This document shows, piece by piece, positions 19,338-34,780 of a DNA stretch of 64,000 bases. The stretch comes from Rhizobium sp. WSM4643 (lineage in GTDB: Bacteria > Pseudomonadota > Alphaproteobacteria > Rhizobiales > Rhizobiaceae): contig NZ_CP104040.1 of the NCBI RefSeq assembly GCF_025152745.1, forward strand, positions 2,604,001 through 2,668,000. Reading direction: 5' to 3'. Position numbers and translations under genes: made by a program. The notes under the pieces were generated by a model that was not told the origin of the DNA, did not search any database, and saw only the letters and a program-made list of their open reading frames with translations. Numbering within the stretch: position 1 is the stretch's first letter; each line of letters opens with the position of its first letter.

Positions 19338-20264
19338 GTGGCATCCTATTCGATTGACGATGCGATCCGGGAACTTGCCCCGGCTCTCGGCAAGGCGCCG
19401 GCAGGCGCGGTCAGCGGCGAATGGACCGCCACCACGATGCAGGCGGGGCGTTCCTCCCGGAGGGGCGGCTACCTCGATGCCGAGGGAAAGCATGTCCCGG
19501 AGGATTCCAGGCATCCGCTCGACAGCATCGCGGATGTCGTCGAAAAGCTCGCTGCCTCAGAGGGGCCACGTTTCAACAAGATGGTGATCCGCTGGAAGAA
19601 GCCGAAATTTCCGTTCATGCAGGCGAAGATCGCGCTCGAAACCAGTTATGACCAGACGATCGTACCGCGCGGCCCCGACGACCCGATCTACGAGATTGCT
19701 GCGGCTGCGCGGCGCGCCTTCTGGCAGAGCCGCGGCACACTGCAGGAGGACTTCGCCGTCGAGCGCGGAACGGCCAATATTCACGCCCAGACAAAATGGT
19801 TCGGCCCGCATCGCCGCATCCTCGCCATCCACACGCCGGGAAGACTGACACTTGCCACTGACGGGCTGTCGACCCCCTGGGCCGGCATATCCGAGCCGGA
19901 GAACGGCGTCGAATGCGAGCTTTTCATGAAATTCGACGCTGCGAGACTGGATACGGCGGGGATCGAAAACTGGGCGAACCTGTTGATCAACATCGGAGAC
20001 CTCGTGGCAGACGGTCATCGCGTCGCCCGCGATGTCGAGAAGCACGGCGCCATCCTGTTCTGCCGACTGACCGAGGATTATCTCCCGATGTCCCGCATCA
20101 TGCTGAGCCGCGACGCAGGCCGGATCGATGGCCTGCCTTTCGGCTCCGTACCGCTGATCCGCGCGACCCCGATCGCCGAAGCCGAAATCGAAGGGCAGGA
20201 CCTTTCCGACGACTGGGGCGCCACGGCCGCCCGGCACGCTCTCGCCAAACGCGCCATCAGATGA
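19338..20264 (+). CDS. Uncharacterised 308-residue protein, weak suppressor-of-fused similarity
   Basis: Begins at GTG 19338 with GGAGGGG upstream. The C-terminal ~170 residues contain RRILAIHTPGRLTLATDGLS, NGVECELFMKFDA, WANLLINIGDLV and PLIRATPIAEAEI. This pattern resembles the SUFU-like domain seen in some bacterial proteins associated with polymorphic toxins. The N-terminal part (residues ~1-110) is rich in charged residues with no family seen. There is no signal peptide. The similarity is by eye and modest; no function is claimed. Confidence 0.65.
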   Translation: MASYSIDDAIRELAPALGKAPAGAVSGEWTATTMQAGRSSRRGGYLDAEGKHVPEDSRHPLDSIADVVEKLAASEGPRFNKMVIRWKKPKFPFMQAKIALETSYDQTIVPRGPDDPIYEIAAAARRAFWQSRGTLQEDFAVERGTANIHAQTKWFGPHRRILAIHTPGRLTLATDGLSTPWAGISEPENGVECELFMKFDAARLDTAGIENWANLLINIGDLVADGHRVARDVEKHGAILFCRLTEDYLPMSRIMLSRDAGRIDGLPFGSVPLIRATPIAEAEIEGQDLSDDWGATAARHALAKRAIR

Positions 20265-20301
20265 TCTCAGCCGGATCGACTCAATCCGGCGCGATCTTTT
20301 G

Positions 20302-20751
20302 CTATTCCTGGATGTCGGGTTCGACGATTCTCGCGAGGTTTCGAAGCGACTCCTGCCAGCCGAGATAACAAGCCTCGGGCGGAATGACGTCAGGCACACC
20401 TGCCTGCACGATATCCACCTCAGTGCCGACCGAAACCTTCTTCAGCGTCACGGTGACTTCCATTTCGCCAGGCAGGTTGGGGTCGTCGAACCTATCGGTG
20501 TAGCGCAGGCGTTCGCCCGGGACGAGCTCGAGATATTCGCCGCCGAAGGCGTGGCTATTGCCCGTCGTGAAGTTGCGGAAGGACATTCTGAACGTGCCGC
20601 CGACAACCGGCTCCGAATGATGCACGGTGCAGAGGAAGCCGTTCGGCGGAAGCCACTTGGCAAGCGCGTCCGCCTCCAGGAATGCGCGATAGACTTTCTC
20701 CGGGCTGGTCGCCAGAACGCGGTGCAGGCGTATGGTACTCGGCATGGTCAT
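20302..20751 (-). CDS. SRPBCC (AHSA1-like) domain protein
   Basis: A 149-residue START/AHSA1-type protein. The fold signature is clear: TIRLHRVLATSPEKVYRAFLEADALAKWLPP, VVGGTFRMSFRNFTTGNSHAFGGEYLELVPGERLRYT and the terminal GWQESLRNLARIVEP helix. Members bind hydrophobic ligands in a deep cavity and are often cotranscribed with ArsR regulators; none is adjacent here. Complete and of normal length. Confidence 0.9.
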   Translation of the reverse strand: MTMPSTIRLHRVLATSPEKVYRAFLEADALAKWLPPNGFLCTVHHSEPVVGGTFRMSFRNFTTGNSHAFGGEYLELVPGERLRYTDRFDDPNLPGEMEVTVTLKKVSVGTEVDIVQAGVPDVIPPEACYLGWQESLRNLARIVEPDIQE

Positions 20752-20837
20752 GATCCTTTTGAATGGACTGAATGGACGAACCTAGGACGGGTGGGGCTTG
20801 GCCGATCCGACACCGGATCGAACTTTTCTTCAAGAAA

Positions 20838-20951
20838 AATTGCTAAAAGCATGTCACGCAAAAGTGTGCAGCCGTTTTGCGATAACGATATGCGTGGAAA
20901 CAAAGACCTAAAGCGCAAGAGAAAACGCTGAAAGATTGGGACGCGCTTTAG
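20838..20951. repeat. Dispersed rhizobial intergenic element, copy 1
   Basis: Contains AAAGTGTGCAGCCGTTTTGC, then AAACAAAGACCTAAAGCGC and a closing GCGCTTTAG that pairs with CTAAAGCGC. A second relative with the same order of motifs is at 57937-58042 (GAGTGCGCAGCGGCTTTGCG, ACCAAAGAGTTAGAACG, then ATGTTCTAG). Confidence 0.5.
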
Positions 20952-21420
20952 GGCATCGCGGCTCAACCGGGCATGCCTTCGAACTGCGGAAGATCGAGCG
21001 GCCTTGCCCAGGCCAGCCGGCGCCGGGTGAACATCTCCACCCCGGCTCGATCAGTTCGGGCCGGTCGAGGCTGCTTAGCGTTACGAAGACGAGGCCGGGA
21101 AAGGCCGTTCTGACGAATCAGGAGATTTACCGCCACGCCGAGGCAGTCGTCGCCACGTTCCTGCCGGCATTTCTGATCCAGATAAGCGATGAACACCGCC
21201 GAAGATCCGGGCCGCAGAGTCCGACAATGACTGGAATTTTCCACGCGTGCCAACGAGCCGACTGTCACAAAGCTGCCGCTCAATCGTCAGCAAATCGCCC
21301 CCTTATCGCCGCACCGTGCCCTCTTAAAGGTTCCATCGTCACGACCTCGCCCTGCCTTTGAGGGCTGAGCGATTGACCGAGGCGGTCCTGCTGCCAACCA
21401 AATCATGCACTTGAAGAGGA
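20952..21420. other. Intergenic region, no supported gene
   Basis: About 470 bp. A minus-strand frame at 20963-21283 and others are open, but none has a recognisable domain, good initiation signal or consistent codon use. It may contain a decayed gene. The promoter of the DUF4168 gene should lie in its right end. Confidence 0.4.
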
Positions 21421-21894
21421 ATGAATATGATCACTCGTTACACATCTGTCGCAACATTGAGCGCGGCAGTCTTCAGTCTGCTTGCTTTCAGCCCGGCATC
21501 CGCTGTCGACATGGCCCAGGCGCAACAGCAGCCGGCGCAGGCGCAACCGCAGGGACAGCCCGGCGGCAGCGGTGCGACCGCTCCCGTCAGCGATCAGAAA
21601 ATCGAGGCCTTCGCCGTTGCCTATCTGCAGGTCGACAAGGTGAGACAGGAATATTCCGCCAAGATCGGCGCGACGAAGGACGAGGCCGCCAAGCAGCAGT
21701 TGCAGGAAGAAGCCAAGAAGCAGATGGTCGATACCGTCCAGGCTTCTCCCGATATCTCCGTCGAGGAATACTCGTCGATCCTGACGGCCGCGCAGAGCGA
21801 CCCGGCTCTGGCCAAGAAGGTTCTGGAAAAGATCGGCACGCCGCCCCCGGGCCAGCAACAACAGCAGCAGGGGCAGCAGCCGCCGCAGCAATAA
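21421..21894 (+). CDS. DUF4168 exported protein
   Basis: A 157-residue protein with a Sec signal peptide (SVATLSAAVFSLLAFSPASAV), then a Gln/Pro-rich linker, a DUF4168 helical domain (residues ~55-135: VSDQKIEAFAVAYLQVDKVR ... SPDISVEEYSSILTAAQSDP) and a Gln-rich tail. DUF4168 proteins are periplasmic or surface proteins of unknown role. GAAGAGGA precedes the start. Confidence 0.85.
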   Translation: MNMITRYTSVATLSAAVFSLLAFSPASAVDMAQAQQQPAQAQPQGQPGGSGATAPVSDQKIEAFAVAYLQVDKVRQEYSAKIGATKDEAAKQQLQEEAKKQMVDTVQASPDISVEEYSSILTAAQSDPALAKKVLEKIGTPPPGQQQQQQGQQPPQQ

Positions 21895-22012
21895 GGCAAC
21901 GCAGCGCTTATGTCGCCACGAATAGGCAGCGGACGCCTTACCGTTCGCGCCGGAAGCAGAGCCCGCCATTTGCCGGGCTCTGTTCACCTCGCCACGGCGA
22001 CGACGGGATCGC

Positions 22013-22399
22013 TCAATATTCGGACCCGCTCTTGTTGTGCAGGTCGTGCCGTTCGGTTCCCGCCAGCGGCGGATTGAAGATGCTGACGAGAATAAGGTCC
22101 TGATCCTTGCCGCCGCGCAGATAATGCCGGTCGTGCTTGTCGAGCACGTAGATATCGCCGGCCCGGATCGGAAAGACGTTGCCGTCCATATCCTCCACTT
22201 CGCCCTCGCCCTTGATGCAATAGCAGGCCTCCAGATGATTGCGGTACTGAAGCAGGGCCTCGCTATTGGCGCGAACGACGGTATGGCACACGGTAAAGCC
22301 CATGCCGTCGTCTTTGGTCAGCAGGCGGTGGCTCGTGCCGTTGCCCCAGTCGACGAAACGCTCGGTGAGTTCCACCTCCTTCAGATTTCTGACGAACAT
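22013..22399 (-). CDS. ectC: Orphan ectoine synthase (EctC)
   Basis: A 128-residue cupin-fold protein that matches EctC along its length: [68 protein letters not shown]. The Glu of LEACY, the Tyr of GDIYVLD and the His of DKHDRHYL correspond to the residues that bind catalytic iron in characterised EctC. The enzyme closes N-acetyl-diaminobutyrate to the osmolyte ectoine. No ectA, ectB or ectD is visible in the window, so this copy is solitary. CAGGAG precedes ATG 22399. It is divergent from a LysR regulator. Confidence 0.9.
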
Positions 22400-22529
22400 C
22401 GCCGATTCTCCTGACAAATTATTGAAGATGTAGCGATGATTCATTTTCATCGCCCACCACAATTAGCTATTGAAATGGCCGGCGTTTTCAAATGATGATT
22501 CCTGCGTCATCTGTTAGGAAATTTTACAC

Positions 22530-23408
22530 ATGCAGTTGCCGCCGCTGAATGCCTTGCGCGCTTTCGAAGCCACGGCCCGCCTGATGAGCCTTTCGAAAGC
22601 GGGCGACGAGCTGCACGTCACCCATGCGGCGATCAGCCATCAAATCAAGCATCTGGAAAACTGGCTCGGCCGCAAGCTGCTGCAGAAATCGGGCCGCGGC
22701 GTTGCGTTGACCGCAGCCGGCAGCGAATATTACCGGGCCATCTCCGGATCGCTGGCGGCGATTGCGCATGCGACCGGCAACATGCGACGCGATCACGACA
22801 TGCGCGCCATCACCGTCGGCTGCATTCCCTCGATCGCATCGCGCTGGCTCGTCCCTGCCCTGCCCTCGTTCCAGGAAAGCAACCCCGATCTCGACGTCAG
22901 GATCGTCTATGCCCGCGCCGAAGAACGCTTCGACGACGAGAGCCTCGACGTGCTCATCACCATGGGCGAGGATCTGAGCGGCGGCAGGGAAAGCCGCCTG
23001 CTCTTCTCCCGCCGCAACCAGCCTGTCGCCAGCCGCCACTACATTACCAAACGCAACTGGACGATCGGCGACGTCTCGCTCGGCGGCACCGATCTGCTGC
23101 ACGACGAATCCATCGACGGCTGGAAGGAATGGTTCCGCAAGGCCGGCCAGAAAGCGCCGGAGCCGCTTCGAGGCCCGATATTCCAGGATTTCAACATGCT
23201 TGCGACGGCCGTGATCGCCGGGCATGGTGTGGCGCTCTGCCCAGTCGAGGTGTTCCGCCGGGAGATCGAGCGCGGCGATCTGCTGGTGCTTTCCGACATC
23301 GCGACGGCTGAGAACCAGGGCTATTACGTCATATCGAACAGCTGGGCGAAAAAGCCGGTGCGCCGCTTCATCGACTGGTTCATGACAGAGTGCGGATCGG
23401 GAGCGTGA
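22530..23408 (+). CDS. LysR-family regulator, GcvA-type
   Basis: A 292-residue LysR-type regulator. Residues 1-60 form the winged helix-turn-helix (LNALRAFEATARLMSLSKAG, ELHVTHAAISHQIKHLENWL) with the PPLNALRAFE start typical of GcvA-like members. The rest is the periplasmic-binding-like effector domain (ITVGCIPSIASRWLVPALPSF, FNMLATAVIAGHGVALCP). It is divergent from ectC with about 130 bp between them and is probably its regulator. Confidence 0.92.
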   Translation: MQLPPLNALRAFEATARLMSLSKAGDELHVTHAAISHQIKHLENWLGRKLLQKSGRGVALTAAGSEYYRAISGSLAAIAHATGNMRRDHDMRAITVGCIPSIASRWLVPALPSFQESNPDLDVRIVYARAEERFDDESLDVLITMGEDLSGGRESRLLFSRRNQPVASRHYITKRNWTIGDVSLGGTDLLHDESIDGWKEWFRKAGQKAPEPLRGPIFQDFNMLATAVIAGHGVALCPVEVFRREIERGDLLVLSDIATAENQGYYVISNSWAKKPVRRFIDWFMTECGSGA

Positions 23409-23630
23409 GATCCCCTGCCCTCAGTTTGTCGAGAGGGTCGCCGCCGAGACGATGGATGCAAATGGGTCGCGGTAATAAAGACATGGCATAAGCCCATCCG
23501 TGTGCGAGTTGGGCAGAGGTTGGGGATTGTTAATCAGAAATACCTAATGTAAATCTTGGCGTGCACAGGTTGTGCGGGATCTGATTTGCTACATTATCTG
23601 GTTTTACATGCGACTAGGGAGGGCCTGGAC

Positions 23631-25283
23631 ATGCGGAAAATTCATGCGGCCCCCTCGGCGCTCGGACAAACACAGTCAAAAGCTTCGAGCTCGATCGACC
23701 GGCTTTTGTTCTTTGACCGCGATTTCAATCCCGTCGCGAATTTGCTGGGCAATGAGCTGCCTGCTTCTGTCAAACCAGCAGTGTCGTTTTGGCAGTATTT
23801 TCCAGAATTGGACAAATCGGCGATTACGCTCGCCCTCCGTTCATTGGGCGACAGCGCTCAGCCTTTGCGAATATCGGGTAATCTTGGCACGCCAGCGTCG
23901 CACGGACTGACGATCTATCGGATCGGAGATCTGTTTGCCGTAGTTCGGTCCGAGGAATCTGTCGACGATGAACGCGCAACCCTTTTGCACCTGGCCACCC
24001 ACGATCCACTCACTGGACTGCCGAACCGACGCCAGTTCAGTGAGGACCTCACTATATTGCTACAGGAGACCGCCGGTTCGAACGAGACTTTGTCCCTGAT
24101 GCAACTCGATCTTGACGATTTCAAACCCGTTAACGACACGCTTGGGCATCCGGCCGGCGACAAGCTTCTTCAGCTCGCTGCAGGCCGCATTCAAGAGTGC
24201 CTTACCGAGGACGACAGAGCCTATCGACTGGCGGGTGACGAATTCACCGTCATATCAAGAGGCCCGGGACATCCCGCCAAAGGACACCAGCTAGCAGAAG
24301 CTTTGGTTGATGCATTCAAAAAGCCCTTCACGATAGATGGCATCGCGCTATTTGTCGGTGCCAGCATCGGCATATCAGCTGCTCCACCGGACGGTACAAG
24401 TCCGGAGCAGCTGATGAAGGCGTCCGACGTCGCACTCTACGCCGCGAAGAAGGACGGGCGCGGTCGCGCGAGACCCTTTGATCCCTCAATGCTTGAGTTG
24501 CTGGAACAACGCGAACTGCTGCGCCGCAGCCTTCGCATGGCTCTGGTCCAACAACAATTCTCTGTAGAGTACCAACCCATTGCCGAGGGCGGCAGCATTG
24601 TCGGCTTCGAAGCATTGCTCAGATGGCACCACCCTCTCCTTGGAATAATCCCACCAACGGCATTCATTCCGATGGCCGAGGCCGATGGAATGATGCCGGA
24701 AATAGGTGCCTGGGTCTTGGAGCAGGCATGTCGCGAGGCAATGAAGTGGCCGCAGAACTATATCGTCGCTGTCAATTTGTCCGCGGCTGAATTCTTGACG
24801 AGCGGCCTCACGGATCGGGTGTCCCAGACGCTGGACCTGGTCGGGCTACCGCCCGACCGTCTGGAGCTTGAAATAACCGAAAGCGTGCTCCTTGAGCGGA
24901 CCGTCAACAATATCGATACGTTGAACACTCTCAACGTGCTGGGCATACGAATCTCGCTTGATGATTTCGGGACCGAATATTCCTCCCTGAGTTATCTGAA
25001 GACATTCCCTTTCGACACGATCAAAATCGACAAATACTTTATCACCGATCTGGAAAGCGATCCGAAAAGCCAGACGATCGTCCGCTGTATCGTCAACCTC
25101 GCACATGGTCTTGACATGCAGGTGACGGCCGAAGGGGTCGAGACTCCGGCTCAGGCGGAATGGTTGGGCAGTGTGGGCTGCGACAGGCTTCAGGGCTATC
25201 TGGTGAGCAGGCCGCTTCCGGTCGAGGCGATCGGCGAGTTCATCAACCGGGCTGAAACATCCGTGAGCCACGTTCTGGTATAA
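23631..25283 (+). CDS. GGDEF-EAL cyclic di-GMP enzyme
   Basis: A 550-residue cytosolic protein. Residues ~20-115 form an unrecognised sensory region, ~120-280 a GGDEF domain (HDPLTGLPNRRQFSEDL; signature RLAGDEFTVI, AGDEF instead of GGDEF) and ~300-540 an EAL domain with GFEALLRW, LELEITES, SLDDFGTEYSSLSYLK, IKIDKYF, AEGVET and QGYLVSRPL. The catalytic EAL and metal-binding motifs are present, with one change (G to E in DDFGTEYS). No RxxD inhibitory site precedes AGDEF. It can plausibly make and/or hydrolyse c-di-GMP. Start: ATG 23631 with AGGGAGGG upstream. It ends 43 bp before the partner-switching genes, so it may be cotranscribed. Confidence 0.92.
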   Translation: MRKIHAAPSALGQTQSKASSSIDRLLFFDRDFNPVANLLGNELPASVKPAVSFWQYFPELDKSAITLALRSLGDSAQPLRISGNLGTPASHGLTIYRIGDLFAVVRSEESVDDERATLLHLATHDPLTGLPNRRQFSEDLTILLQETAGSNETLSLMQLDLDDFKPVNDTLGHPAGDKLLQLAAGRIQECLTEDDRAYRLAGDEFTVISRGPGHPAKGHQLAEALVDAFKKPFTIDGIALFVGASIGISAAPPDGTSPEQLMKASDVALYAAKKDGRGRARPFDPSMLELLEQRELLRRSLRMALVQQQFSVEYQPIAEGGSIVGFEALLRWHHPLLGIIPPTAFIPMAEADGMMPEIGAWVLEQACREAMKWPQNYIVAVNLSAAEFLTSGLTDRVSQTLDLVGLPPDRLELEITESVLLERTVNNIDTLNTLNVLGIRISLDDFGTEYSSLSYLKTFPFDTIKIDKYFITDLESDPKSQTIVRCIVNLAHGLDMQVTAEGVETPAQAEWLGSVGCDRLQGYLVSRPLPVEAIGEFINRAETSVSHVLV

Positions 25284-25326
25284 AGAACGAGTGATTTTTG
25301 AGGGCATCTGACGCTCCAGACAACTG

Positions 25327-25830
25327 ATGGAGGCTGTATTGGAAGAGGAAGCATCTGGCTTCGATGACCATGCATTGGCGCCGATGGTATCGCTGGAATT
25401 GAACGTTGCGACGTTCAAATCTCAGTGGCAGTTTTGCGACAGGATTACCGAATATCTCTCAGACATTCTCGGCCAAGGTCACAGCGATCCCGCTCGATAT
25501 TCGAATTTTCTTTCCGTCGCAGCCAACGAGCTCGTTGAACTAGCCTTTCGCTCGACGGGTGAGCCGGGAAGGATAAGTTTCAGTCTCTATCGGGGCGCGA
25601 CGTTCAACCGGCTGAGAATTGCCTTTGCCCGCGAGGACCGCGAGAGTACGAGTATGAAATCAAGTGAACGCCAGTCTCTACCGGGCGCCGGGTCTGACCT
25701 GAAGTCCGGCGGGACGATTTTGCTCAGAGATCTGGCAACCATATTCCGCGCCGCTATCCGAATTGAGCAAGACGGCGCCCGCAGGATGCAAATCATCGCG
25801 GATTTCCCCTCGGCCGAGGATTTCCGATGA
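25327..25830 (+). CDS. Putative HATPase-like regulator of the partner-switching cluster (1)
   Basis: A 167-residue protein. The middle contains RYSNFLSVAANELVELAFRS, which resembles the N-box helix of GHKL/anti-sigma-factor kinases, followed by SFSLYRGATFNRLRIAF as the next beta-strand pair. The ATP lid glycines are not clear. The family resembles uncharacterised proteins that precede STAS and SpoIIE genes. Its stop overlaps the next ATG by four bases (ATGA). ATG 25327 lacks a strong binding site; ATG 25384 is an alternative start. The likely role is binding or phosphorylating a STAS partner, by inference from the neighbours. Confidence 0.6.
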   Translation: MEAVLEEEASGFDDHALAPMVSLELNVATFKSQWQFCDRITEYLSDILGQGHSDPARYSNFLSVAANELVELAFRSTGEPGRISFSLYRGATFNRLRIAFAREDRESTSMKSSERQSLPGAGSDLKSGGTILLRDLATIFRAAIRIEQDGARRMQIIADFPSAEDFR

Positions 25831-26999
25831 CCCTGCTTGCCCGCCCCTTCACCGTTCATTTTGATCCGACAAATCAGGAGCTGTTGTTGTCCGGCAAGAT
25901 GCGGCCTGAAAGCTCCGACGAGATTGCCGATGCTCTCGAACTCGTGCGGCAAAGTTTGGAAAATTACAGCGGCGTCGTTTATCTCAATGTCAAACGCCTG
26001 ACGCATATCAACATGACGGCCTTCGCAGCCCTTTCCGAGGTGCTCACGGAAAGCTGCCGGACCATGCCTGAACGGAAGATCGTCATCGTTACGTCGAGCG
26101 TGGTGGCATGGTCGACCTCGTTGTTCCAGACCTTGGCGGCAGCACAACCAAACCTGTCGGTTGAAGTCTACGATTCGGCGTTTTATCCCGGCCAGAGCTT
26201 TGTCGAGGATGAGAGCTTCATTCCCATTCTGCGCACCCAGACGAAGATGACATGGCAGCACGAACGCGAACTGTTGCCTCGCCACGGTTTGCGCAGCGGT
26301 CTTGTCATCGCGGATATCTGTTGCGGAATTGGGGACTTCGCGGCGTTGGTTCAACGAGAATTTAAACCGGCACGACTTGTCGCGTTGGATCACTCCGTGC
26401 GCAGCCTCGAGTATGCACGCAGGGTCGCTGCCGACTTCGATCTGCAGGGAATCGAATACACCTATGGTGACGCGTCGCAAATGCTGCTGCGAGACAATCA
26501 ATTCGACTTTGTCACCTGCCGACATTCACTGCAGATTTTCAACCGTCCCGAGACGCTGCTCAGGGAGCTTTACCGCATCTGTAAACCTGGCGGCCGCGTC
26601 TACATCACCAATGAAAAAAATTCGCATTGTCTGGGCGAGCCACATGCTGAATCCATAAAATGGACTTATGAGGAGGTCGCCAAACTGTTCAAGCACTTCG
26701 ACATGGATGTCGAGATGGGGCCGAAAAGCCGCCATCTTCTTGCTGACGCCGGGTTCGATAGCATCAAGGTCGATTGCTTTATGGTCACGAACCTTGACGG
26801 GGATCCCCAAGACTTCGCAGACATCATCGAAGCTTGGGAGAATGTCTATGCTGGCGAGATGGCCGTCCGGCGGGGGGACTCATCAGATTTCATTCGCAGG
26901 TTCCGGCAAGGATTCAGAGATCATATCTTTGCTGCTCTTCACCCCAAGGGTTATGCAGGCTGGCCGATCTGGGCCGCTTCCGGCCGAAAGCCGCTGTGA
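25827..26999 (+). CDS. STAS-like domain fused to a SAM-dependent methyltransferase
   Basis: A 390-residue two-domain protein. Residues ~1-115 form a STAS-like (anti-sigma-factor-antagonist) domain: FTVHFDPTNQELLLSGKM, VVYLNVKRLTHINMTAFAAL, KIVIVTSS. The segment corresponding to the phosphorylatable DSSG loop reads INMTAF. Residues ~130-390 form a class I methyltransferase with motif I VIADICCGIGDFAAL, motif II region LVALDHSVRSLEYARR and the motif IV region DFVTCRHSLQIFNRPE, followed by LYRICKPGGRVYITNEK. The final TGATG overlaps the start of the phosphatase gene. A methyl-transfer output coupled to a partner-switching domain is unusual; the substrate is unknown. Confidence 0.85.
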   Translation: MTLLARPFTVHFDPTNQELLLSGKMRPESSDEIADALELVRQSLENYSGVVYLNVKRLTHINMTAFAALSEVLTESCRTMPERKIVIVTSSVVAWSTSLFQTLAAAQPNLSVEVYDSAFYPGQSFVEDESFIPILRTQTKMTWQHERELLPRHGLRSGLVIADICCGIGDFAALVQREFKPARLVALDHSVRSLEYARRVAADFDLQGIEYTYGDASQMLLRDNQFDFVTCRHSLQIFNRPETLLRELYRICKPGGRVYITNEKNSHCLGEPHAESIKWTYEEVAKLFKHFDMDVEMGPKSRHLLADAGFDSIKVDCFMVTNLDGDPQDFADIIEAWENVYAGEMAVRRGDSSDFIRRFRQGFRDHIFAALHPKGYAGWPIWAASGRKPL

Positions 27000-29362
27000 T
27001 GGACGGGAGATCATCATCGAAGAGACCGGCACGACTGGGCTCATTTCGGGCGAAGTTCATCCTAGTCGTCGGTGGCGCCGTCCTTTTCGACTTGCTGGTC
27101 AGCGGCGGCCTAGCGCTTTGGAATGTTCAGAGGCTGTCGCGCGACGCCACCCTCGAAGTCGGACAGGGTCTCGAAGCAGCAAGCCAGGAATACATCCGCA
27201 CCTATGCCGATTCCACCGCAGCCCAGGTGAGTTTGCTCCTGCGGCAGGTTCATAGCGACGTCAGTACGCTGGCAGGCGTGCTCCAGGCGCAGATCGATGA
27301 TCCCGCCCGCAATTCGGACGTCGGCGCGGCAATCGCCCGCACATCGCCTGGCAGCGTCAGCCTTGTTTACGATGAGAAGGGAAAATGGTCTCAGAACCTG
27401 CCCGGCTCCGCTTCGGTTGTGAGCGTCTGGGGTTACTTGCTCGGACCTGACCATCGGCCGAAACCCGACATTCAGCGCGATCTAGAGACGAGCGCGGTTC
27501 TTGACATCGTTGCGCCGAGCCTGCTGCAGCACGGCGCTTCCAAGCTGCAGATGTACTACATCGGACCGAAAGAACGGCCAATCTTCAGGACGGCGCCTTA
27601 CACCGACCAGGCTCAGACCTTCGATCGCCTTTATTCGGGGCACAACGAAGCCGATTTCTGGGACTTCTTTTTCCCCGGGCTTTACGAGTCCTGGCAGAGC
27701 TGGGCCAAGGACGCGAAAACGCGGCCGGTCGCGGACGATATCACGCAGACCGCTCCATATACCGATGCCATTACCGGAAAGCTGATCGTCAGTTTCTTTC
27801 ATCCATTGTGGACAGCCGACCGGAAGGATGTCACCGGGACGGCCGGCGCCGATATCACCCTCGACCAGCTCGCGCAGATTGTTGAGAATGTGAAAGTGGC
27901 CCAGTCCGGCTTTGGATTTCTCGCAATGTCCGACGGAAACGTTGTGGCGATCAACAGCACAGGAGAAAAAACCCTCGGTCTGCGTTCTGCGAGCGATCCG
28001 AGCGGAGCCGGCGCCTTGACCGGCCTGGAGCGCTCCCTGAAGGGAAGCTCCCAGCCTGCGATAGCAAAACTGGCCCTCGACCGCGAACAGGGCATCCAAC
28101 ATTTGTTGTTGCAGCAGGACGGCAACGAGGTCCCCTATATCGCTATCGTCAAGAAACTGCCGGCGACCAATCTCTGGGTCAGTGGCCCGGTTCGGCAAGA
28201 GTCGATGTTGCTGGGGGTCGTTGTGCCCGAGCGAGAAATCGATGCCTCGCTCTATGCGGCCCAGGCCAAGATTTCCGAAGCGACGAACCGGATCGTGCTC
28301 TACCAAATTCTGGCGATCCTGATGTCCCTGCTGATCGTGACGATCGCGGTCTTTGCGGCCTCGAAACGAATAACCAGCGGAATCAGCGCCCTGGCAGGGG
28401 CCGCCAAACGGATTCAGGCGAAGGATTATTCCGTCAGAGTGGCCATCACAAGCAGGGACGAAGTCGGTGAGGCCGGTGAAGCCTTCAATCGCATGGCCGA
28501 AGAGATCAGCTATCACACCGAAAATCTCGAGCAGCTCGTCGAAGAGCGAACCGCTCAAATCGAAGATGCAAAGGAAGAGATTTCGACACTGAACGCACAG
28601 CTCCAGCGTGAAAATCGACGTCTCGGAACAGAGCTGGCCGTCGCCGAGAGAATCCAGCTCATGGTTCTTCCGCTGCATCAGGAGCTTGAAGAATTTCAGG
28701 CCCTCGAGATCGCAGCCTATATGAGACCGGCGGAAGAAGTCGGTGGCGACTATTACGACGTATTGAAGAACGGAAGCCGATTGAAGATTGGCATCGGCGA
28801 CGTCACCGGACACGGGCTCGAAAGCGGCGTGTTGATGTTGATGGTTCAGTCCGTCGCCCGCGCCCTGCAGGAAGCCGGAAACACCGATGCAGTCAAATTT
28901 CTCACGGACCTGAACAGCGCCCTATTTAAAAATATCGTGAGGACTAAAATCGACAAGCATCTCACCCTGGCGTTTCTTGATTACGACGGAAAAGAGATGA
29001 TCCTGTCGGGACAACACGAGGAAGTTGTTGTCGTGCGGGCGAACGGCGAAGTCGAGCGCATAGATACGATGGATCTCGGCATACCGATCGGGTTGGAAGC
29101 CGACATTTCTGCCTTCATTAAAACCCGTGAAATAGCCTTCGATAAAGGGGACCTCATACTCTTGCATACGGACGGCGTAACAGAAGCCGAAAACGACGCG
29201 GGAGAACTATTCGGCATCGAACGTCTGTGCCGCGAAGCACTTCGCTTGAAGGATCAGAGCGCTGAGAAAATCGTTTCCGGAATTGTAACGACACTGATGC
29301 TCTTCATTGGATCTCAGAAGATCTACGACGACATCACGCTTCTCGCAGTGCGGCATAGGTGA
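26999..29362 (+). CDS. Membrane sensor phosphatase: extracytoplasmic dCache-like domain, HAMP, SpoIIE-type PP2C
   Basis: A 787-residue sensor phosphatase. Helix 1 is at ~17-40, an extracytoplasmic region of ~390 residues resembling a double Cache sensor follows (GPKERPIFRTAPYTDQ, TGTAGADITLDQLAQIVENV), then helix 2 at ~436-458. A HAMP domain (~459-510) and a coiled coil (~510-555: ENLEQLVEERTAQIEDAKEE) lead to a PP2C/SpoIIE phosphatase. Its metal-binding motifs are present: VGGDYYDV (~581), GIGDVTGHGLESG, LLHTDGVTEAEN and YDDITLLAV. It should dephosphorylate a STAS-domain Ser/Thr in response to a periplasmic signal. The ATG overlaps the methyltransferase stop (TGATG). Confidence 0.92.
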   Translation: MDGRSSSKRPARLGSFRAKFILVVGGAVLFDLLVSGGLALWNVQRLSRDATLEVGQGLEAASQEYIRTYADSTAAQVSLLLRQVHSDVSTLAGVLQAQIDDPARNSDVGAAIARTSPGSVSLVYDEKGKWSQNLPGSASVVSVWGYLLGPDHRPKPDIQRDLETSAVLDIVAPSLLQHGASKLQMYYIGPKERPIFRTAPYTDQAQTFDRLYSGHNEADFWDFFFPGLYESWQSWAKDAKTRPVADDITQTAPYTDAITGKLIVSFFHPLWTADRKDVTGTAGADITLDQLAQIVENVKVAQSGFGFLAMSDGNVVAINSTGEKTLGLRSASDPSGAGALTGLERSLKGSSQPAIAKLALDREQGIQHLLLQQDGNEVPYIAIVKKLPATNLWVSGPVRQESMLLGVVVPEREIDASLYAAQAKISEATNRIVLYQILAILMSLLIVTIAVFAASKRITSGISALAGAAKRIQAKDYSVRVAITSRDEVGEAGEAFNRMAEEISYHTENLEQLVEERTAQIEDAKEEISTLNAQLQRENRRLGTELAVAERIQLMVLPLHQELEEFQALEIAAYMRPAEEVGGDYYDVLKNGSRLKIGIGDVTGHGLESGVLMLMVQSVARALQEAGNTDAVKFLTDLNSALFKNIVRTKIDKHLTLAFLDYDGKEMILSGQHEEVVVVRANGEVERIDTMDLGIPIGLEADISAFIKTREIAFDKGDLILLHTDGVTEAENDAGELFGIERLCREALRLKDQSAEKIVSGIVTTLMLFIGSQKIYDDITLLAVRHR

Positions 29363-29365
29363 GAC

Positions 29366-29926
29366 ATGACGCCAACGGTATATGGTATCGAATCTCTGGC
29401 GGGCATAAGTCTGGATTCAAGCACCCGCCTCACGTTAAGCGACGGACCGCTTCAGCTTGGATGGAAGCACTCAGGAATGACTTCGGACTTTATCGCGGAG
29501 GTCATGGCTCTGCGGTATTCCCGTTCAAGAAAAGACTATGTGCAGGCGCATCATGACATCGGATATCTCAGCAATGAGTTGATCGAAAATGCCGTTAAGT
29601 TTCGACAGCCTGGGGAGATCCTCATTGAAGTCGGCATATTCGACGGTACTTTTTTAATAAGGGTGAAGAACACGATCGATGGCGTGACATCCTCTCGCTT
29701 GCAGCAACTGCTGCATCGCCTCCAATCGAGGGACCCCGGGGAACTTCTTCTTGAGCAAATCGAAACCAATGCCATATCGGCAGAAAGCGGTTCGGGATTG
29801 GGGTTGCTCACCCTTCTGAGCGATTACGATGCAAAAATGGCATGGGCATTCGAAGAGAACTACGACCAGCGTATCATACTGACGACGACTGCAGCTGTGG
29901 CGATGCCGCCCTCCTCCAATCTGTGA
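29366..29926 (+). CDS. HATPase-like anti-sigma-factor-kinase-type regulator (2)
   Basis: A 186-residue protein with a GHKL ATPase fold: the N-box reads HDIGYLSNELIENAVKFRQP and the glycine-rich ATP lid reads ESGSGLGLLTLLSDYD. The rest matches slr1658-type regulators. In partner-switching systems such proteins phosphorylate the STAS antagonist on Ser/Thr or sequester the target. It starts 3 bp after the phosphatase stop and ends 7 bp before the STAS gene, the expected kinase-antagonist order. Start ATG 29366. Confidence 0.8.
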   Translation: MTPTVYGIESLAGISLDSSTRLTLSDGPLQLGWKHSGMTSDFIAEVMALRYSRSRKDYVQAHHDIGYLSNELIENAVKFRQPGEILIEVGIFDGTFLIRVKNTIDGVTSSRLQQLLHRLQSRDPGELLLEQIETNAISAESGSGLGLLTLLSDYDAKMAWAFEENYDQRIILTTTAAVAMPPSSNL

Positions 29927-29933
29927 GCGAAGA

Positions 29934-30272
29934 ATGGAAATCAGCGACGAAAACTTCCGTGTATGGGCTGAGAAAAACGAGGTGTATTTCGATGGCGTAT
30001 TCCGGCTGGCAGGACCGGACGCCTATGCGCCCATTTACTCATTGGTATCAGGCCTGCTCCATGAGGGGCACAAACAGGTGACGTTCAACCTCACAGGCCT
30101 CGAATTCCTCAATTCCTCTGGCATAAATCTCCTGGCCAAGTTGACAATTGAAGCCAGAAAAATGGGCGACCTCCTGCTCATAGTCAAAGGCACCAATCAA
30201 TATCCTTGGCAAGCGAAGTCCCTCCCGAATCTCAAGAAGCTGCACCCGCTTCTCGATTTGCGCCTGGCGTGA
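29934..30272 (+). CDS. STAS-domain anti-sigma-factor antagonist-like protein
   Basis: A 112-residue single STAS domain, similar to slr1659-type antagonists. The segment FNLTGLEFLNSSGINLLAKL carries the canonical loop in which a Ser (NSSG) is the expected phosphorylation site. It ends the partner-switching operon. It is the probable substrate of the HATPase upstream and of the SpoIIE-type phosphatase. No sigma factor gene is adjacent, so the final target is unknown. Confidence 0.85.
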   Translation: MEISDENFRVWAEKNEVYFDGVFRLAGPDAYAPIYSLVSGLLHEGHKQVTFNLTGLEFLNSSGINLLAKLTIEARKMGDLLLIVKGTNQYPWQAKSLPNLKKLHPLLDLRLA

Positions 30273-30375
30273 TTCTCTTTGGGCGAAAGTGCCCTGCGCC
30301 GAGAGGTGTTCGCCGCCGCGCGGGGATGAAAAAGGGATTCGTTAAGTATTCCACGCCATCTAGGACCATAGACGT

Positions 30376-30408
30376 GACCGACATCGGACCTCGGTCCGAT
30401 GTGCGGTC
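30376..30408. promoter_or_regulatory. Perfect inverted repeat between the STAS gene and the Gly-rich secreted protein
   Basis: ACATCGGACC (30381-30390) and GGTCCGATGT (30393-30402) are separated by TC, ten perfect base pairs. Flanking GACCG and GCGGTC extend the symmetry. No T tract follows, so an operator is as likely as a terminator; it lies about 80 bp before the next start. Confidence 0.55.
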
Positions 30409-30485
30409 GGCGATCACCGTCTAACCTCTCGTATCTGTGCAAGCGGTGCATCTGCACGGCGCTTGATCGGATTTGGAGGAAAACA

Positions 30486-31136
30486 ATGCGGATAGCAACC
30501 TTAGCGTCCTTGGCCGTGCTCTCGCTGGCTCTTGCAGCAAGCCCGGCAACGATTGCCGGGATCGACATGACCGCGCTGGCAAAGAGCGGTGGAAACGGTG
30601 GCGGCAACAGTGGGGGCAATGGCGGCGGCGGTCACGGCGGCGGCGGCGGAAACAGCGGCAACCATGGCAGCAGCAGCCAGGATAGCGGTTCAACCCATGG
30701 CAACTCCAAATCTCAAGGTGTGAAAGGCAAATCCACCGAGGCGGAAAGCAAGTCCAAGTCCGTCAAGGCAGACGAGACCAAAGTCAGCACCAAAGAAAAG
30801 AACCTGTCGGCGCAACTTGCGGGCCTGAACTCCTTGAAGCGAAACTACAAGGCGTTGATGCATTCGTCCGACCCACGCATGACGGCCATTGCGGCCTATG
30901 CCGTGGCTTATGCCCAGTATGAACTCGACAATGGAATCGAGCCCGCAGCCGATGACCCTCTGTTGGGGGATCAGGCGCTGGAGGACGCATTGGCTTCAGC
31001 GACGAAAACCGGTGAAGTCAGCCCGGCGGTTTTGGACGAAGCCAAAACCATCTTGGGGGTTGGCGAAGCAAACGGGAAGATCGATCAAATCCGCACCTCT
31101 CTGGAGAACCCCGCGCCGGCGACATCCGAGGAATAG
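30486..31136 (+). CDS. Secreted Gly/Ser/Asn-rich hypothetical protein
   Basis: A 216-residue protein with a Sec signal peptide (MRIATLASLAVLSLALAASP ... AGIDM), followed by a low-complexity Gly/Asn/His region (~30-60), a Ser/Lys-rich stretch (~60-100) and a folded helical C-terminal domain (~105-215: NLSAQLAGLNSLKRNYKALM). It is probably exported or in the cell envelope. GGAGGAAAACA precedes ATG 30486. No functional prediction. Confidence 0.75.
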   Translation: MRIATLASLAVLSLALAASPATIAGIDMTALAKSGGNGGGNSGGNGGGGHGGGGGNSGNHGSSSQDSGSTHGNSKSQGVKGKSTEAESKSKSVKADETKVSTKEKNLSAQLAGLNSLKRNYKALMHSSDPRMTAIAAYAVAYAQYELDNGIEPAADDPLLGDQALEDALASATKTGEVSPAVLDEAKTILGVGEANGKIDQIRTSLENPAPATSEE

Positions 31137-31196
31137 CCGATAAATCAGTTGCGAGCGGTGTGGAGCCGACAAGTATGGCTCCGCACTAAACTACGA

Positions 31197-31239
31197 AGAG
31201 CATCTCCGTTCTGTTTGAGTATGGAGATGCTCTTTTTTT
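31197..31239 (+). terminator. Rho-independent terminator
   Basis: AGAGCATCTCC pairs perfectly with GGAGATGCTCT around a 15-base loop and is followed by a run of T's. It lies about 60 bp after the Gly-rich gene stop. Confidence 0.85.
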
Positions 31240-31487
31240 ATCAATTTCAGACGCAGAACCCTTTGCTCGATTGCTCCAAGATGACGGTCGATCACCCGCC
31301 GCCTCGAAGTCCCTATGTTGTGATGAGCCTTCGAGCGTGCCGAATTCGTTTCACGTCGGCAGTCAAGTTTGTCGACATCCCGACGGACAATGGTGTCGCA
31401 GTATTGAAAACTATCGGTCGTTTGCGAACCCGCCTTGATCCGGGCAGAGGCCGGTCTGCGGCCCCTGCCTTGCACGCGAAAGCCGCG

Positions 31488-33620
31488 TCACCCCGCGAGC
31501 TCGATGATCGCGCAGCCGTAGCCTTCGAGATCGAGCCTGCCGGCAACCGGCTTTTCGTCACCGAGAAGGTCGCGGCCAGCGGGAACGCCGCCGATGGCGG
31601 CCGGCTGGTCGGTGTAGTTCTGGATGAACAGCAACCGGCGCTCTTCGTTCATCCGCATGGTCACCTCGACGCCCTCGGGAAGGTCGCCGATCAGCGGCTC
31701 GATGCCGACGGGTGCAAACAGCCGCTCGGCAAGCGCTGCCGTCAGATCCGGGGTGAGATAGGTGCCGACATAGACCACCTGCCCCTTGCCGAGCTTGCGC
31801 GACGTCGCCATCGGCTGGCCCTCGGCATAGCGGTTGGACCAGGCCGCGACCACTTCGACATCGCCTGCGATCGCGAGGTTTTCATAAAAATAGCCGGCAG
31901 CCAATTCGCGATTGCCGATCTTGAAGCGGCGCTCGCGACGGTGTGATTCCGCTGGCTTGTTCGGTGGAATGACAAGCCCGCCCGAACGCTCCATCACATC
32001 GAAGAGCCCATTGGCGCCGGGAGCGGCAAGGCGGCCGAAATCCTCGACGCGCACGCCTGTGAGTTGCGACAGCGAGGTGCCGGGCGCGGTCTCGCGGATG
32101 ACGTGATTGTCTTCGTTGCGCGTGCCGGTGCGCGCGCCGATGACGACGGTGCCGCCCTGCTCCGCGAAGGATTTCAGCCTTTCGGTCCATTCGTCCTTCC
32201 ACATCACCCAGTGGGGGACATAGAGCAGCTTCAGCTTGGAAAGATCGTCCTCGGGATGAATGAAGCCACAGGCAATGCCGCGGTCGTAGCAATATTGGTG
32301 CAGCAGGATCGCATCGTCCTGTGGGCTCGGCAGTCCGATCGGATAGGTCTTGTGGGCTTCCTGATTATCGAAGTCGGAGCCGGCAATGCCGACATCCATG
32401 CGTACATAAGTGCCGAGGATCTTGGGCGCCAGCGCGGTCATCTCGGTTGCGAAGCGCTTCGCCTCGTCATAGCGATGGCGGGCGACGTCGTCGTGGTCGA
32501 TGATGCCCATCCAGTAAATTTCGGCGCCAAAATGCGCTGGGCGCCAGCGGAAGAACATCAACCCGTCGGCGCCATGGGCGACCGAGGAAAGCGCCATGCG
32601 GCGCAGTTCGCCCGGCTCCGGCGTCAGCGTGCAGAAACCGGGCTGGCTGCCGAAGCCCGATTGCTGCTCGGGAACGATATAGTTGCCTGAAAAACCGCGA
32701 CAGATATCGAGATGCAGCGCCTGAACCTTGGCGTGGTTTCCGAGCCGCTGGAATTCGTCGTAAAGCATCGGGTAGATGTCGTAGCCGACGAAATCGAGAT
32801 CGGTGGTGAACTGGCCGCGAAAGTCGATATCCCGGAGACCGCCGAGATTGTGGAAGACGAACCAGGAGGATTTGACGGCGCGCAGGATCTCCACCTGGTC
32901 GCGCTGAAAGCGCGCCGTCGAAAAGGCGAGGAAACGGTGATAATCCTGCAGATGGCCGGGGCTCGGGAAGGTCGGGCCGAACTCGATCGGCAGCACCACC
33001 TGCTCGAAGCTGTCATAGGCCGTCGCCCAGAAATCGCCGCCCCACGCCGTGTTGAGCTTGCTGATCTCGCCGTATTTGCCAGCGAGGAAGGCTTGGAATT
33101 CGGTGAGCGTCGCCTTGGAAAAACTTTCCGGCATGCTGGTGTTCAGCTCGTTGTCGGTCTGCCAGCCGACGACAAAAGGATTGTCGCGATAATGCTCGGC
33201 CATCGCTTTGGTGATGCGCCGGCTGTGTTCGCGAAACACCGGGCTTGCCGTGTCGCAATGCTGCCGCGAGCCATGGCTCATCGGCCGGCCCTTGCCGTCG
33301 ACCCTTAAGATCTCCGGATGCGCCACGGTCAGCCAGCGCGGCGGCGTGGCCGTCGGCGTGCACACGATCGTGTCGATGCCATAGCACCCGAGCATGGCGA
33401 TGGCGCGGTCGAACAGATCGAAATCGAAGGTGCCGAGCTTCGGCTCGAGAATATGCCAGGCGAATTCGGCCATTCTGACCACGTTGAAGCCGGCCTTCGC
33501 CATGCGCTCGGCATCGCGCTCCCAGTAGCTTTCATCGACGTGCTCGGGATAATGCGGGGCGCCGACGAGGAAGCGGTCGGTCTTGACGGGGTTCCATACG
33601 GAGAGGGTCTTGTCGGACAC
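31488..33620 (-). CDS. GH42 beta-galactosidase
   Basis: A 710-residue glycosyl hydrolase family 42 enzyme. The N-terminal TIM barrel holds the acid/base in VVGWQTDNELNTSMP (Glu of DNEL). The nucleophile Glu is in FFRWRPAHFGAEIYWMG. The middle trimerisation domain and the C-terminal beta domain (MRMNEERRLLFIQNYTDQPA) follow. It has no signal peptide and acts in the cytoplasm on beta-galactosides imported by the adjacent ABC transporter, whose ATPase gene ends 14 bp upstream. It is the last gene of the operon that is divergent from the ROK regulator at 38283. Confidence 0.93.
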   Translation of the reverse strand: MSDKTLSVWNPVKTDRFLVGAPHYPEHVDESYWERDAERMAKAGFNVVRMAEFAWHILEPKLGTFDFDLFDRAIAMLGCYGIDTIVCTPTATPPRWLTVAHPEILRVDGKGRPMSHGSRQHCDTASPVFREHSRRITKAMAEHYRDNPFVVGWQTDNELNTSMPESFSKATLTEFQAFLAGKYGEISKLNTAWGGDFWATAYDSFEQVVLPIEFGPTFPSPGHLQDYHRFLAFSTARFQRDQVEILRAVKSSWFVFHNLGGLRDIDFRGQFTTDLDFVGYDIYPMLYDEFQRLGNHAKVQALHLDICRGFSGNYIVPEQQSGFGSQPGFCTLTPEPGELRRMALSSVAHGADGLMFFRWRPAHFGAEIYWMGIIDHDDVARHRYDEAKRFATEMTALAPKILGTYVRMDVGIAGSDFDNQEAHKTYPIGLPSPQDDAILLHQYCYDRGIACGFIHPEDDLSKLKLLYVPHWVMWKDEWTERLKSFAEQGGTVVIGARTGTRNEDNHVIRETAPGTSLSQLTGVRVEDFGRLAAPGANGLFDVMERSGGLVIPPNKPAESHRRERRFKIGNRELAAGYFYENLAIAGDVEVVAAWSNRYAEGQPMATSRKLGKGQVVYVGTYLTPDLTAALAERLFAPVGIEPLIGDLPEGVEVTMRMNEERRLLFIQNYTDQPAAIGGVPAGRDLLGDEKPVAGRLDLEGYGCAIIELAG

Positions 33621-33634
33621 GGTGATGTTTCCTG

Positions 33635-34780
33635 TTATCTGTCGAGGATCGTCTTGCGGGCGCTGATCGTGCGTCCGCCATCGGGCAAGAAGAGATAGAC
33701 TTCGCTGGCGTCGAGCTTCAGCGCCACGTTCTGGTCGGCGGCAAAAGGCGCGACGTAGCTGAGCTGCACCGTGATGTTGCCGGTGCCGCTTTCCGAGGCG
33801 ATGGTCCTAAGATTGCCGGCATCTACGTAGAGAATGGTTTCGCGCCCGAGATGCTCGACCAGCCGGACCGCACCGTTGATCGCCCCGCCTTGAGCAGCGT
33901 CGGCGGCCACCGATATGTTCTCCGGCCTTACACCGAGCGTCAGGCTGGCGCCCTTCGCCAGCACCGTGGCCTCCGCCAGCTCGATCGTCACCGGCAAGAG
34001 GCCCGGTGCCGAAACCGTGATATTGCGGCTGGACACCTCATCGACGGCAACGCCGAGGAAATTCATCCGCGGCGCGCCGAGAAAGCCCGCGACGAAGAGA
34101 TTGTCTGGGTTGCGGTAGAGTTCGAGCGGCGAGCCGACCTGCTCGATCACCCCCTGGTTCAAGACGACGATCCGGCTTGCCATGGTCATGGCCTCCACCT
34201 GGTCGTGGGTGACGTAAACCATGGTGGCGCCGAGTTCGGCATGCAGGCTGCTGAGCTCGACACGCATCTGGGTTCTGAGTGCCGCATCGAGGTTCGACAG
34301 CGGCTCGTCGAACAGGAAGACATCGGGCGAACGGGTGATGGCCCGGCCGATCGCCACGCGTTGCCGCTGACCGCCGGAAAGCTGCTTCGGCCGCTTTTCC
34401 AGCTGATCGGTGATCCTCAGGATCTTGGCGGCGCGCGCCACCGCCGCCTCGATCTCGGCCTTCGGGCGCTTGGCCATGCGCAAACCGAAGCCCATGTTCT
34501 CCGCCACCGTCATATGCGGATAGAGCGCGTAGGATTGGAAGACCATGGCGATGCCGCGGTCCCCTGGCTCCTGTTTGCTGACGTCGCGGCCGTTGATCAG
34601 GATCTGGCCGGAGGAGATCTCCTCCAGGCCGGCGATCGTTTTCAAAAGCGTCGACTTGCCGCAGCCGGAGGGGCCGACCATGACGATGAACTCGCCCTGC
34701 GCTACGGAAAGATCGATGCCGCGCAGCGCATGATAGGCGCCGTAATTCTTGTTGATTTGTCGGAGTTCGAGACTGGTCAT
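33635..34780 (-). CDS. Sugar ABC transporter ATP-binding protein (MsmX/UgpC type)
   Basis: A 381-residue ATPase. Walker A is [12 protein letters not shown], the signature is [14 protein letters not shown], Walker B and the catalytic Glu are [13 protein letters not shown], the H-loop His is in [11 protein letters not shown]. The C-terminal ~140 residues form the TOBE/OB domains of the CUT1 class. It energises the two permeases upstream. It follows the second permease gene with a 58-bp gap and is followed by the beta-galactosidase gene. Confidence 0.94.

Follow-up and report, generated by a model that had tools for sequence, protein, structure and literature searches.

A probable bgrRSTUWV orthologue in Rhizobium sp. 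WSM4643 and a proposed diverged second arm with a STAS-methyltransferase fusion

The stretch of DNA considered here comprises 64,000 nucleotides of Rhizobium sp. WSM4643 (contig NZ_CP104040.1, positions 2,604,001 to 2,668,000) and is referred to as the window; it belongs to a genome of 6.4 Mb in 4 contigs (G000; G, L and f numbers denote genomes, loci and families), whose nearest relatives place it in the R. leguminosarum group. Six open reading frames (ORFs) of one direction occupy positions 23631-30272. Judged by its gene order, this locus is an orthologue of what is probably the bgrRSTUWV locus of Sinorhizobium meliloti, a system that is already published. The reading that we favor, with a probability of roughly 0.7, is that of a bgr orthologue in which a live U-W-V-R switch is accompanied by a diverged second arm made of S and T, the latter a fusion of a STAS domain with a methyltransferase. 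An earlier sequence-only reading of the same DNA is thereby partly supported; the asymmetry between the live-looking W and V and the dead-looking S and T had been overlooked there. What makes the locus interesting, in our view, is the apparently dead pair of S and T, with the methyltransferase that T carries.

Gene content and domain architecture

The ORFs confirm that five tightly coupled genes follow a GGDEF-EAL gene, with the coordinates, overlaps and gaps that the sequence-only reading had given: S and T share an ATGA overlap, T and U a TGATG overlap, and gaps of 3 bp and 7 bp separate U from W and W from V. All six genes lie on the forward strand. The first, R (23631-25283), encodes a GGDEF-EAL protein recognized by Pfam, with an AGDEF motif and an EAL signature, and is a BgrR orthologue by position, its letter being taken from gene order. 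S (25327-25830) encodes a GHKL-fold protein, a divergent slr1658 relative and probable pseudokinase, with the N-box NELVEL (Leu for Asn) and no conserved glycine lid. T (25827-26999) encodes an N-terminal STAS domain (about residues 1-115, loop N62-M63-T64-A65), to which are fused a class I S-adenosylmethionine (SAM) methyltransferase (about residues 153-262) and, over residues 263-390, a C-terminal part that is also conserved. U (26999-29362) consists of a Cache-like region, a HAMP domain and a SpoIIE/PP2C phosphatase in which the acidic active-site motifs are present. W (29366-29926) encodes a live-looking GHKL kinase of the slr1658 superfamily, with the N-box NELIENAVKF and an SGLGLL lid, and V (29934-30272) a stand-alone STAS protein of the slr1659 superfamily with the phospho-loop N60-S61-S62-G63.

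Pfam matches above the cut-offs were obtained for GGDEF and EAL in R, the methyltransferase in T, HAMP and SpoIIE in U and, marginally, HATPase_c in W (26.7 bits, cut-off 26.4). The dCache_1 match in U (33.8 bits, cut-off 45) and the STAS match in V (20.2 bits, cut-off 22.6) stayed under them, and S had no Pfam match at all. With the NCBIfam cut-off of 100 bits, W (164.5 bits) belongs to the slr1658 superfamily and V (122.4 bits) to the slr1659 superfamily, and below that cut-off S scored 17.9 bits with slr1658 and T 40.2 bits with slr1659. Orthologues of S matched slr1658 in S. meliloti (E 1.4e-6) and in G671 (E 4.8e-9), both under the bit cut-off; the relation of S to slr1658, like that of T to slr1659, comes entirely from profile comparison. 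As the sequence-only reading had noted for the adjacent genes, a sigma-factor family was found in none of the 13 proteins scanned locally at 19338-33620, 3 of which lack any Pfam match; a sigma factor encoded farther away might still be a target. A promoter and terminator scan of the locus stayed at chance level.

Probable identity with the bgr locus

Plasmid pSymB of S. meliloti 1021 (L082) carries the same six genes. The original work on bgrRSTUWV of S. meliloti is reportedly that of Baena et al. 2019; bgrR, the head of a six-gene operon, is presumably SMb20447, and unphosphorylated BgrV is said to have been proposed as an inhibitor of BgrR. According to passages of two publications (PMC8457831, PMC7647112), both of which cite Baena et al. 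2019 (doi 10.1111/1462-2920.14624), the S. meliloti diguanylate cyclase BgrR is modulated by a partner switch, BgrSTUWV, in which BgrU and BgrW act on BgrV and BgrV affects BgrR; these passages do not describe S and T. The proposals that the SpoIIE phosphatase, a GHKL kinase and a STAS protein form a partner switch, and that cyclic di-GMP (c-di-GMP) is one output, are both likely in the light of these passages. The implied new kind of system, on the other hand, must be given up, and the published bgr switch, whose gene order the locus matches, has already established that partner switching can do without a sigma factor. The U, W and V motifs are kept in the window; the biochemistry has been reported for S. 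meliloti only.

Live-looking W and V, dead-looking S and T

In GHKL kinases, the Asn of the N-box binds Mg-ATP. This residue is present in W in 95 of 95 alignment rows and in S in 0 of 94. The fold is nevertheless found in both, so that the description of two HATPase-like proteins holds as far as the fold is concerned: the only PDB match of the S structure model at E <=0.001 in Foldseek is SpoIIAB, and re-ranking of the matches of this model with VIA-align gives a stronger basis for the GHKL kinase fold than Foldseek does. S is the fastest evolving protein of the set and is under purifying selection despite the missing N-box Asn. The S of L064, below detection at E 1e-4, was recovered by profile search (215 bits, N-box NELLEM). 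S combines the kinase fold with a missing catalytic Asn and is probably not a kinase. For W, a sequence search of the PDB gave three weak matches only, all at E >0.1 (DnaA, SrrB and an anti-sigma antagonist), and PDB searches with the V sequence, the W profile and the V profile gave nothing. The W genes of L067, L070 and L077 end short of the end of the tblastn match.

The two STAS proteins differ similarly. The first Ser of the loop is the phospho-acceptor in SpoIIAA and RsbV. In V, the NSSG loop is invariant (95 of 95 rows), while in the T STAS half hhalign places Met63, not Thr64, opposite the first Ser of NSSG. Nine residue types occur at this position in the 94 rows of T, and 88 of them have neither Ser nor Thr there. 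Phosphate added directly at the canonical site therefore probably does not determine the state of this STAS half.

The enzymatic half of T is, by its motifs, a class I SAM methyltransferase: Pfam Methyltransf_11 matches with E 5e-19, and the SAM-binding motifs AD[IV]CCG[IV]GDF and [VI]ALDHS are found in 81 of 81 rows. In the same 81 rows, columns conserved to >=95% amount to 74 of 110 in the methyltransferase core against 24 of 115 in the STAS domain, and the linker, methyltransferase and C-terminal parts are all strongly conserved. The structure model of T has a mean pLDDT (predicted local distance difference test) of 61.8, with block means of 70-94 over residues 11-110; because the whole model is weak, its fold matches were used for the methyltransferase type alone. 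Most of the solved structures closest to T are methyltransferases of small molecules; the best NCBIfam model for this part is UbiE-like, below cut-off. In the limited collection of literature searched, no statement was found about what S or T does.

Conservation and distribution of the core

A contig scan with T as query returned 268 relatives, of which the best 80 named loci, those closest to the window, were analyzed. The gene order is identical in all 80, which argues that the arrangement is not due to chance and bears out the expectation of a conserved order. All six genes are present in 79 of them; R, S, T and U were found in every one of the 80 loci, and W and V are missing only from L044, which reaches the contig end inside the SpoIIE gene. 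With script-chosen starts, the median gaps are -4 (S-T), -4 (T-U), 4 (U-W) and 8 (W-V), and R is separated from S by a median of 57 (range -14 to 192). How constant T is cannot be read from these named loci, since T itself served to retrieve them and no others are closer to the window.

Independent searches for V and for full-length T were therefore considered over 297 genomes of the order, and both were found in the same 12 genomes, which belong to the families f1, f23, f41 and f50; partial matches to T, of the methyltransferase only, occurred in 17 further genomes. For slr1659, 9 of 349 genomes of a phylum sample matched at E <=1e-5 (7 over the cut-off) and 12 of 337 genomes of a class sample (3 over it). 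The fusion is present in all eight distinct Alphaproteobacteria over the slr1659 cut-off and not in G345, which belongs to another class. Each of the 240 database relatives listed (the best 120 of 909 and the best 120 of 949) aligns with no less than 92% of the fusion used as query. One V-like match lies on a Burkholderia plasmid.

In addition, 13 further regions were inspected, 12 of them with the fusion and one from G345, with 12-16 kb each for counting R. In every one of the 12 fusion-bearing regions, S and T lie next to U-W-V.

Variable outputs

The cyclase gene is a less faithful companion. R adjoins the core in five of these regions (G229, G537 and G187 of f1; G121 and G150 of f50) and is absent within 12-16 kb in seven (G135 and G068 of f23; G254, G237 and G286 of f41; G671 and G864 of f185). 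Hence the adjacency of a GGDEF-EAL gene holds for f1 and f50 and fails for f23, f41 and f185; f185 lies outside the order, and the core lacks a neighboring R in three families in total. In a tree of the joined S-T-U-W-V proteins from 40 loci, a single branch with support 1.0 splits the loci with R from those without it. The tree does not distinguish gain from loss of R, because its root is uncertain.

Several observations were made on R and on the loci without it. Near five of the seven cores without R (L142, L143, L145, L148 and L149) there is a stand-alone SpoIIE-like gene on the opposite strand, confirmed by Pfam in 3 of the 5, and in L142 and L143 a second STAS-like gene, also on the opposite strand, lies near the core. 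In the loop DFGTxYSS of R, Glu is found in most of 81 rows at a position that is usually Gly. The stretch before the GGDEF motif of R occurs in 51 variants, and the window copy has no RxxD at the place, relative to that motif, where this site is usually found. R may be regulated differently from the textbook case.

A similar picture emerges for the glucan synthase. In S. meliloti, a 669-residue cellulose-synthase-like ORF is located at 403635-405644 of pSymB, and a passage of PMC9495663 gives BgsA as SM_b20391. From its position and type this ORF is likely BgsA. If it is SM_b20391, gene spacing would place the pSymB locus near SMb20447. With the likely BgsA as query, matches were found in 9 of 23 chosen genomes. 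Identity is 78-79% in G000, G023, G187 and G281 (78% in G000; the G281 copy has one internal stop), and matches of <=35% or none were obtained both in four genomes that have R (G229, G537, G121 and G150) and in the seven where R does not lie nearby. Given the co-occurrence of V and T and the missing R or BgsA-like matches, it is the fusion that stays constant, whereas the cyclase and the likely glucan synthase vary.

Proposed mechanism and alternatives

In the mechanism that we propose for the bgr orthologue with two arms, U would sense a putative periplasmic signal and strip the phosphate from V, W would phosphorylate V, predictably at Ser61, and the phosphorylation state of V would control the diguanylate cyclase R. 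S, together with the STAS domain of T, may be a diverged copy of the W-V pair that lost both kinase and phospho-acceptor chemistry and whose STAS domain became joined to a methyltransferase. S, or an S-W heterodimer, might then clamp T through its unphosphorylatable STAS domain until unphosphorylated V, of the same fold, displaces T, the methyltransferase taking the place that the Rsb and SpoIIA systems give to a sigma factor. Loss of phosphate from V in response to the signal would lead to more methylation, besides setting c-di-GMP. Taken on its own, this wiring, with S or S-W holding T and V displacing it, is tentative, and we would put it at less than even odds. The fuller version, in which the core has two copies, one live and one dead, the pseudokinase holds the methyltransferase through an unphosphorylatable STAS domain for which the live STAS protein competes, methylation is constant and perhaps ancestral, and the cyclase is later or lineage-specific, is a speculation that we regard as doubtful; under it, an enzyme attached to a frozen antagonist copy would stand in for the sigma factor.

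Several points weigh against this account. The Glu of the S N-box is kept in 93 of 93 rows and GxGxG follows the N-box in 10 of 93, either of which would be compatible with weak nucleotide binding or activity; conversely, the Asp after the N-box of W is Asp in 83 of 95 rows only. At the canonical site of T, Ser occurs in 6 of 94 rows, and Thr stands beside it, at position 64, in 83 of 94. The derivation of S-T from W-V by duplication, suggested by the sequences, is a weak point: an own-genome search with W did not recover S, and the S and T clades are deep, with the W side of the tree unsupported (0.055). The loss of chemistry in S and T is moreover one inherited state and not many independent events. 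Mirror-tree partial correlations over 78 loci (S-T 0.157, T-W 0.197, T-V 0.249, S-W 0.105, W-V 0.097, S-V -0.49; permutation p 0.003 for S-T and 0.0005 for T-V and T-W) do not single out the S-T pair and do not decide between binding partners. Finally, the letters R, S, T, U, W and V of the window genes come from gene order, not from annotation.

Alternatively, T could be an independent enzyme whose STAS domain serves dimerization or folding only, with S as its chaperone and no partner exchange with W-V. The far better conservation of the methyltransferase than of the STAS domain and the fast evolution of S would suit such an arrangement, which we consider unlikely: of the 297 genomes, the 12 with V are also the 12 with T, S and T have U-W-V as neighbors in 79 of the 80 named loci (the exception, L044, is cut by its contig end) and in 12 of 12 additional fusion regions, and the STAS domain of T, which no Pfam STAS model recognizes, scores with slr1659, to which V belongs.

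A second alternative, implied by the sequence-only reading, is that the STAS domain of T has remained a phospho-switch, with W or S phosphorylating Thr64 (or Ser63 where present), U removing the phosphate and the methyltransferase being controlled directly; it could draw on the frequent Thr64 mentioned above and on the phosphorylation of SiaC on Thr (a passage of PMC7647112; PMC7278518). We find it improbable in view of the hhalign placement of Met63 and of the 10 of 94 rows without Ser or Thr at either position, which include all seven genomes without a neighboring R gene (NNVA), against the invariant NSSG of V. An assignment of the locus to SiaABCD with an extra enzyme, for which the SpoIIE part of U (111.5 bits with the SiaA model, and a match to the solved serine phosphatase 6k4e, presumably a SiaA domain) and a weak W match to SiaB (23.7 bits) might be quoted, is very improbable and was rejected on curated cut-offs, as these NCBIfam scores are far under 700 and 85, SiaD reaches 100 of 290 bits, V has no match to SiaC/DUF1987 (PF09345) up to E 1 (T: E 0.23, below cut-off), and V and W pass the slr1659 and slr1658 cut-offs.

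The bgr story as known is one of c-di-GMP and beta-glucan, and the comparison made here suggests that this part is not constant. Should T prove to be a genuine output, bgr mutants of a model symbiont would carry an unread methylation phenotype. The locus would also offer a natural non-phosphorylatable STAS protein for testing partner exchange without phosphate.

Neighboring genes

Elsewhere in the window, an ectoine synthase-like gene (PF06339, 134 bits) lies at 22013-22462 on the reverse strand, between the genes for a DUF4168 protein and a LysR regulator. At 31488-34780, also on the reverse strand, a GH42 beta-galactosidase gene (350 bits) adjoins an ORF that was read by eye as an ABC transporter ATPase.

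Comparison with known systems

The closest counterpart is BgrRSTUWV itself, which shares with the window the six-gene order, the cyclase, the PP2C phosphatase, the kinase and the STAS protein; no structural difference was found, and the window genome has a homologue of the likely BgsA. Like the window locus, SiaABCD of Pseudomonas aeruginosa has a membrane PP2C phosphatase, a kinase, a STAS-fold phosphoprotein and control of a cyclase without a sigma factor (passages of PMC8457831; PMC7278518). It differs in that SiaC is a DUF1987 protein phosphorylated on Thr68 (Thr phosphorylation: passages of PMC7647112; PMC7278518), and the Sia passages do not mention a methyltransferase. Novelty for want of a sigma factor was a candidate that we rejected on the literature (passages of PMC8256260, PMC8457831 and PMC7647112; PMC7278518).

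The slr1658/slr1659 pair on a Kovacikia plasmid keeps the N-box Asn and NSSG, as W and V do. Unlike in the window, this pair adjoins a SulP-type transporter gene, with no fusion and no S-like gene within 24 kb. The SulP-type transporter (L128, 11265-13874, Kovacikia minuta plasmid pA) is a possible different target of such a switch in cyanobacteria. In G345 (L150, 4485-9140), genes for a GGDEF protein, an slr1658 kinase, an slr1659 STAS protein, a periplasmic binding protein and a SpoIIE phosphatase follow one another; this compact slr1658/slr1659 system is linked to a cyclase and lacks the methyltransferase fusion.

With RsbU/RsbV/RsbW and SpoIIAA/SpoIIAB, the window shares the three biochemical roles and the kinase fold. 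It differs from them in having no sigma factor among the neighbors scanned and in carrying an enzyme on a STAS domain.

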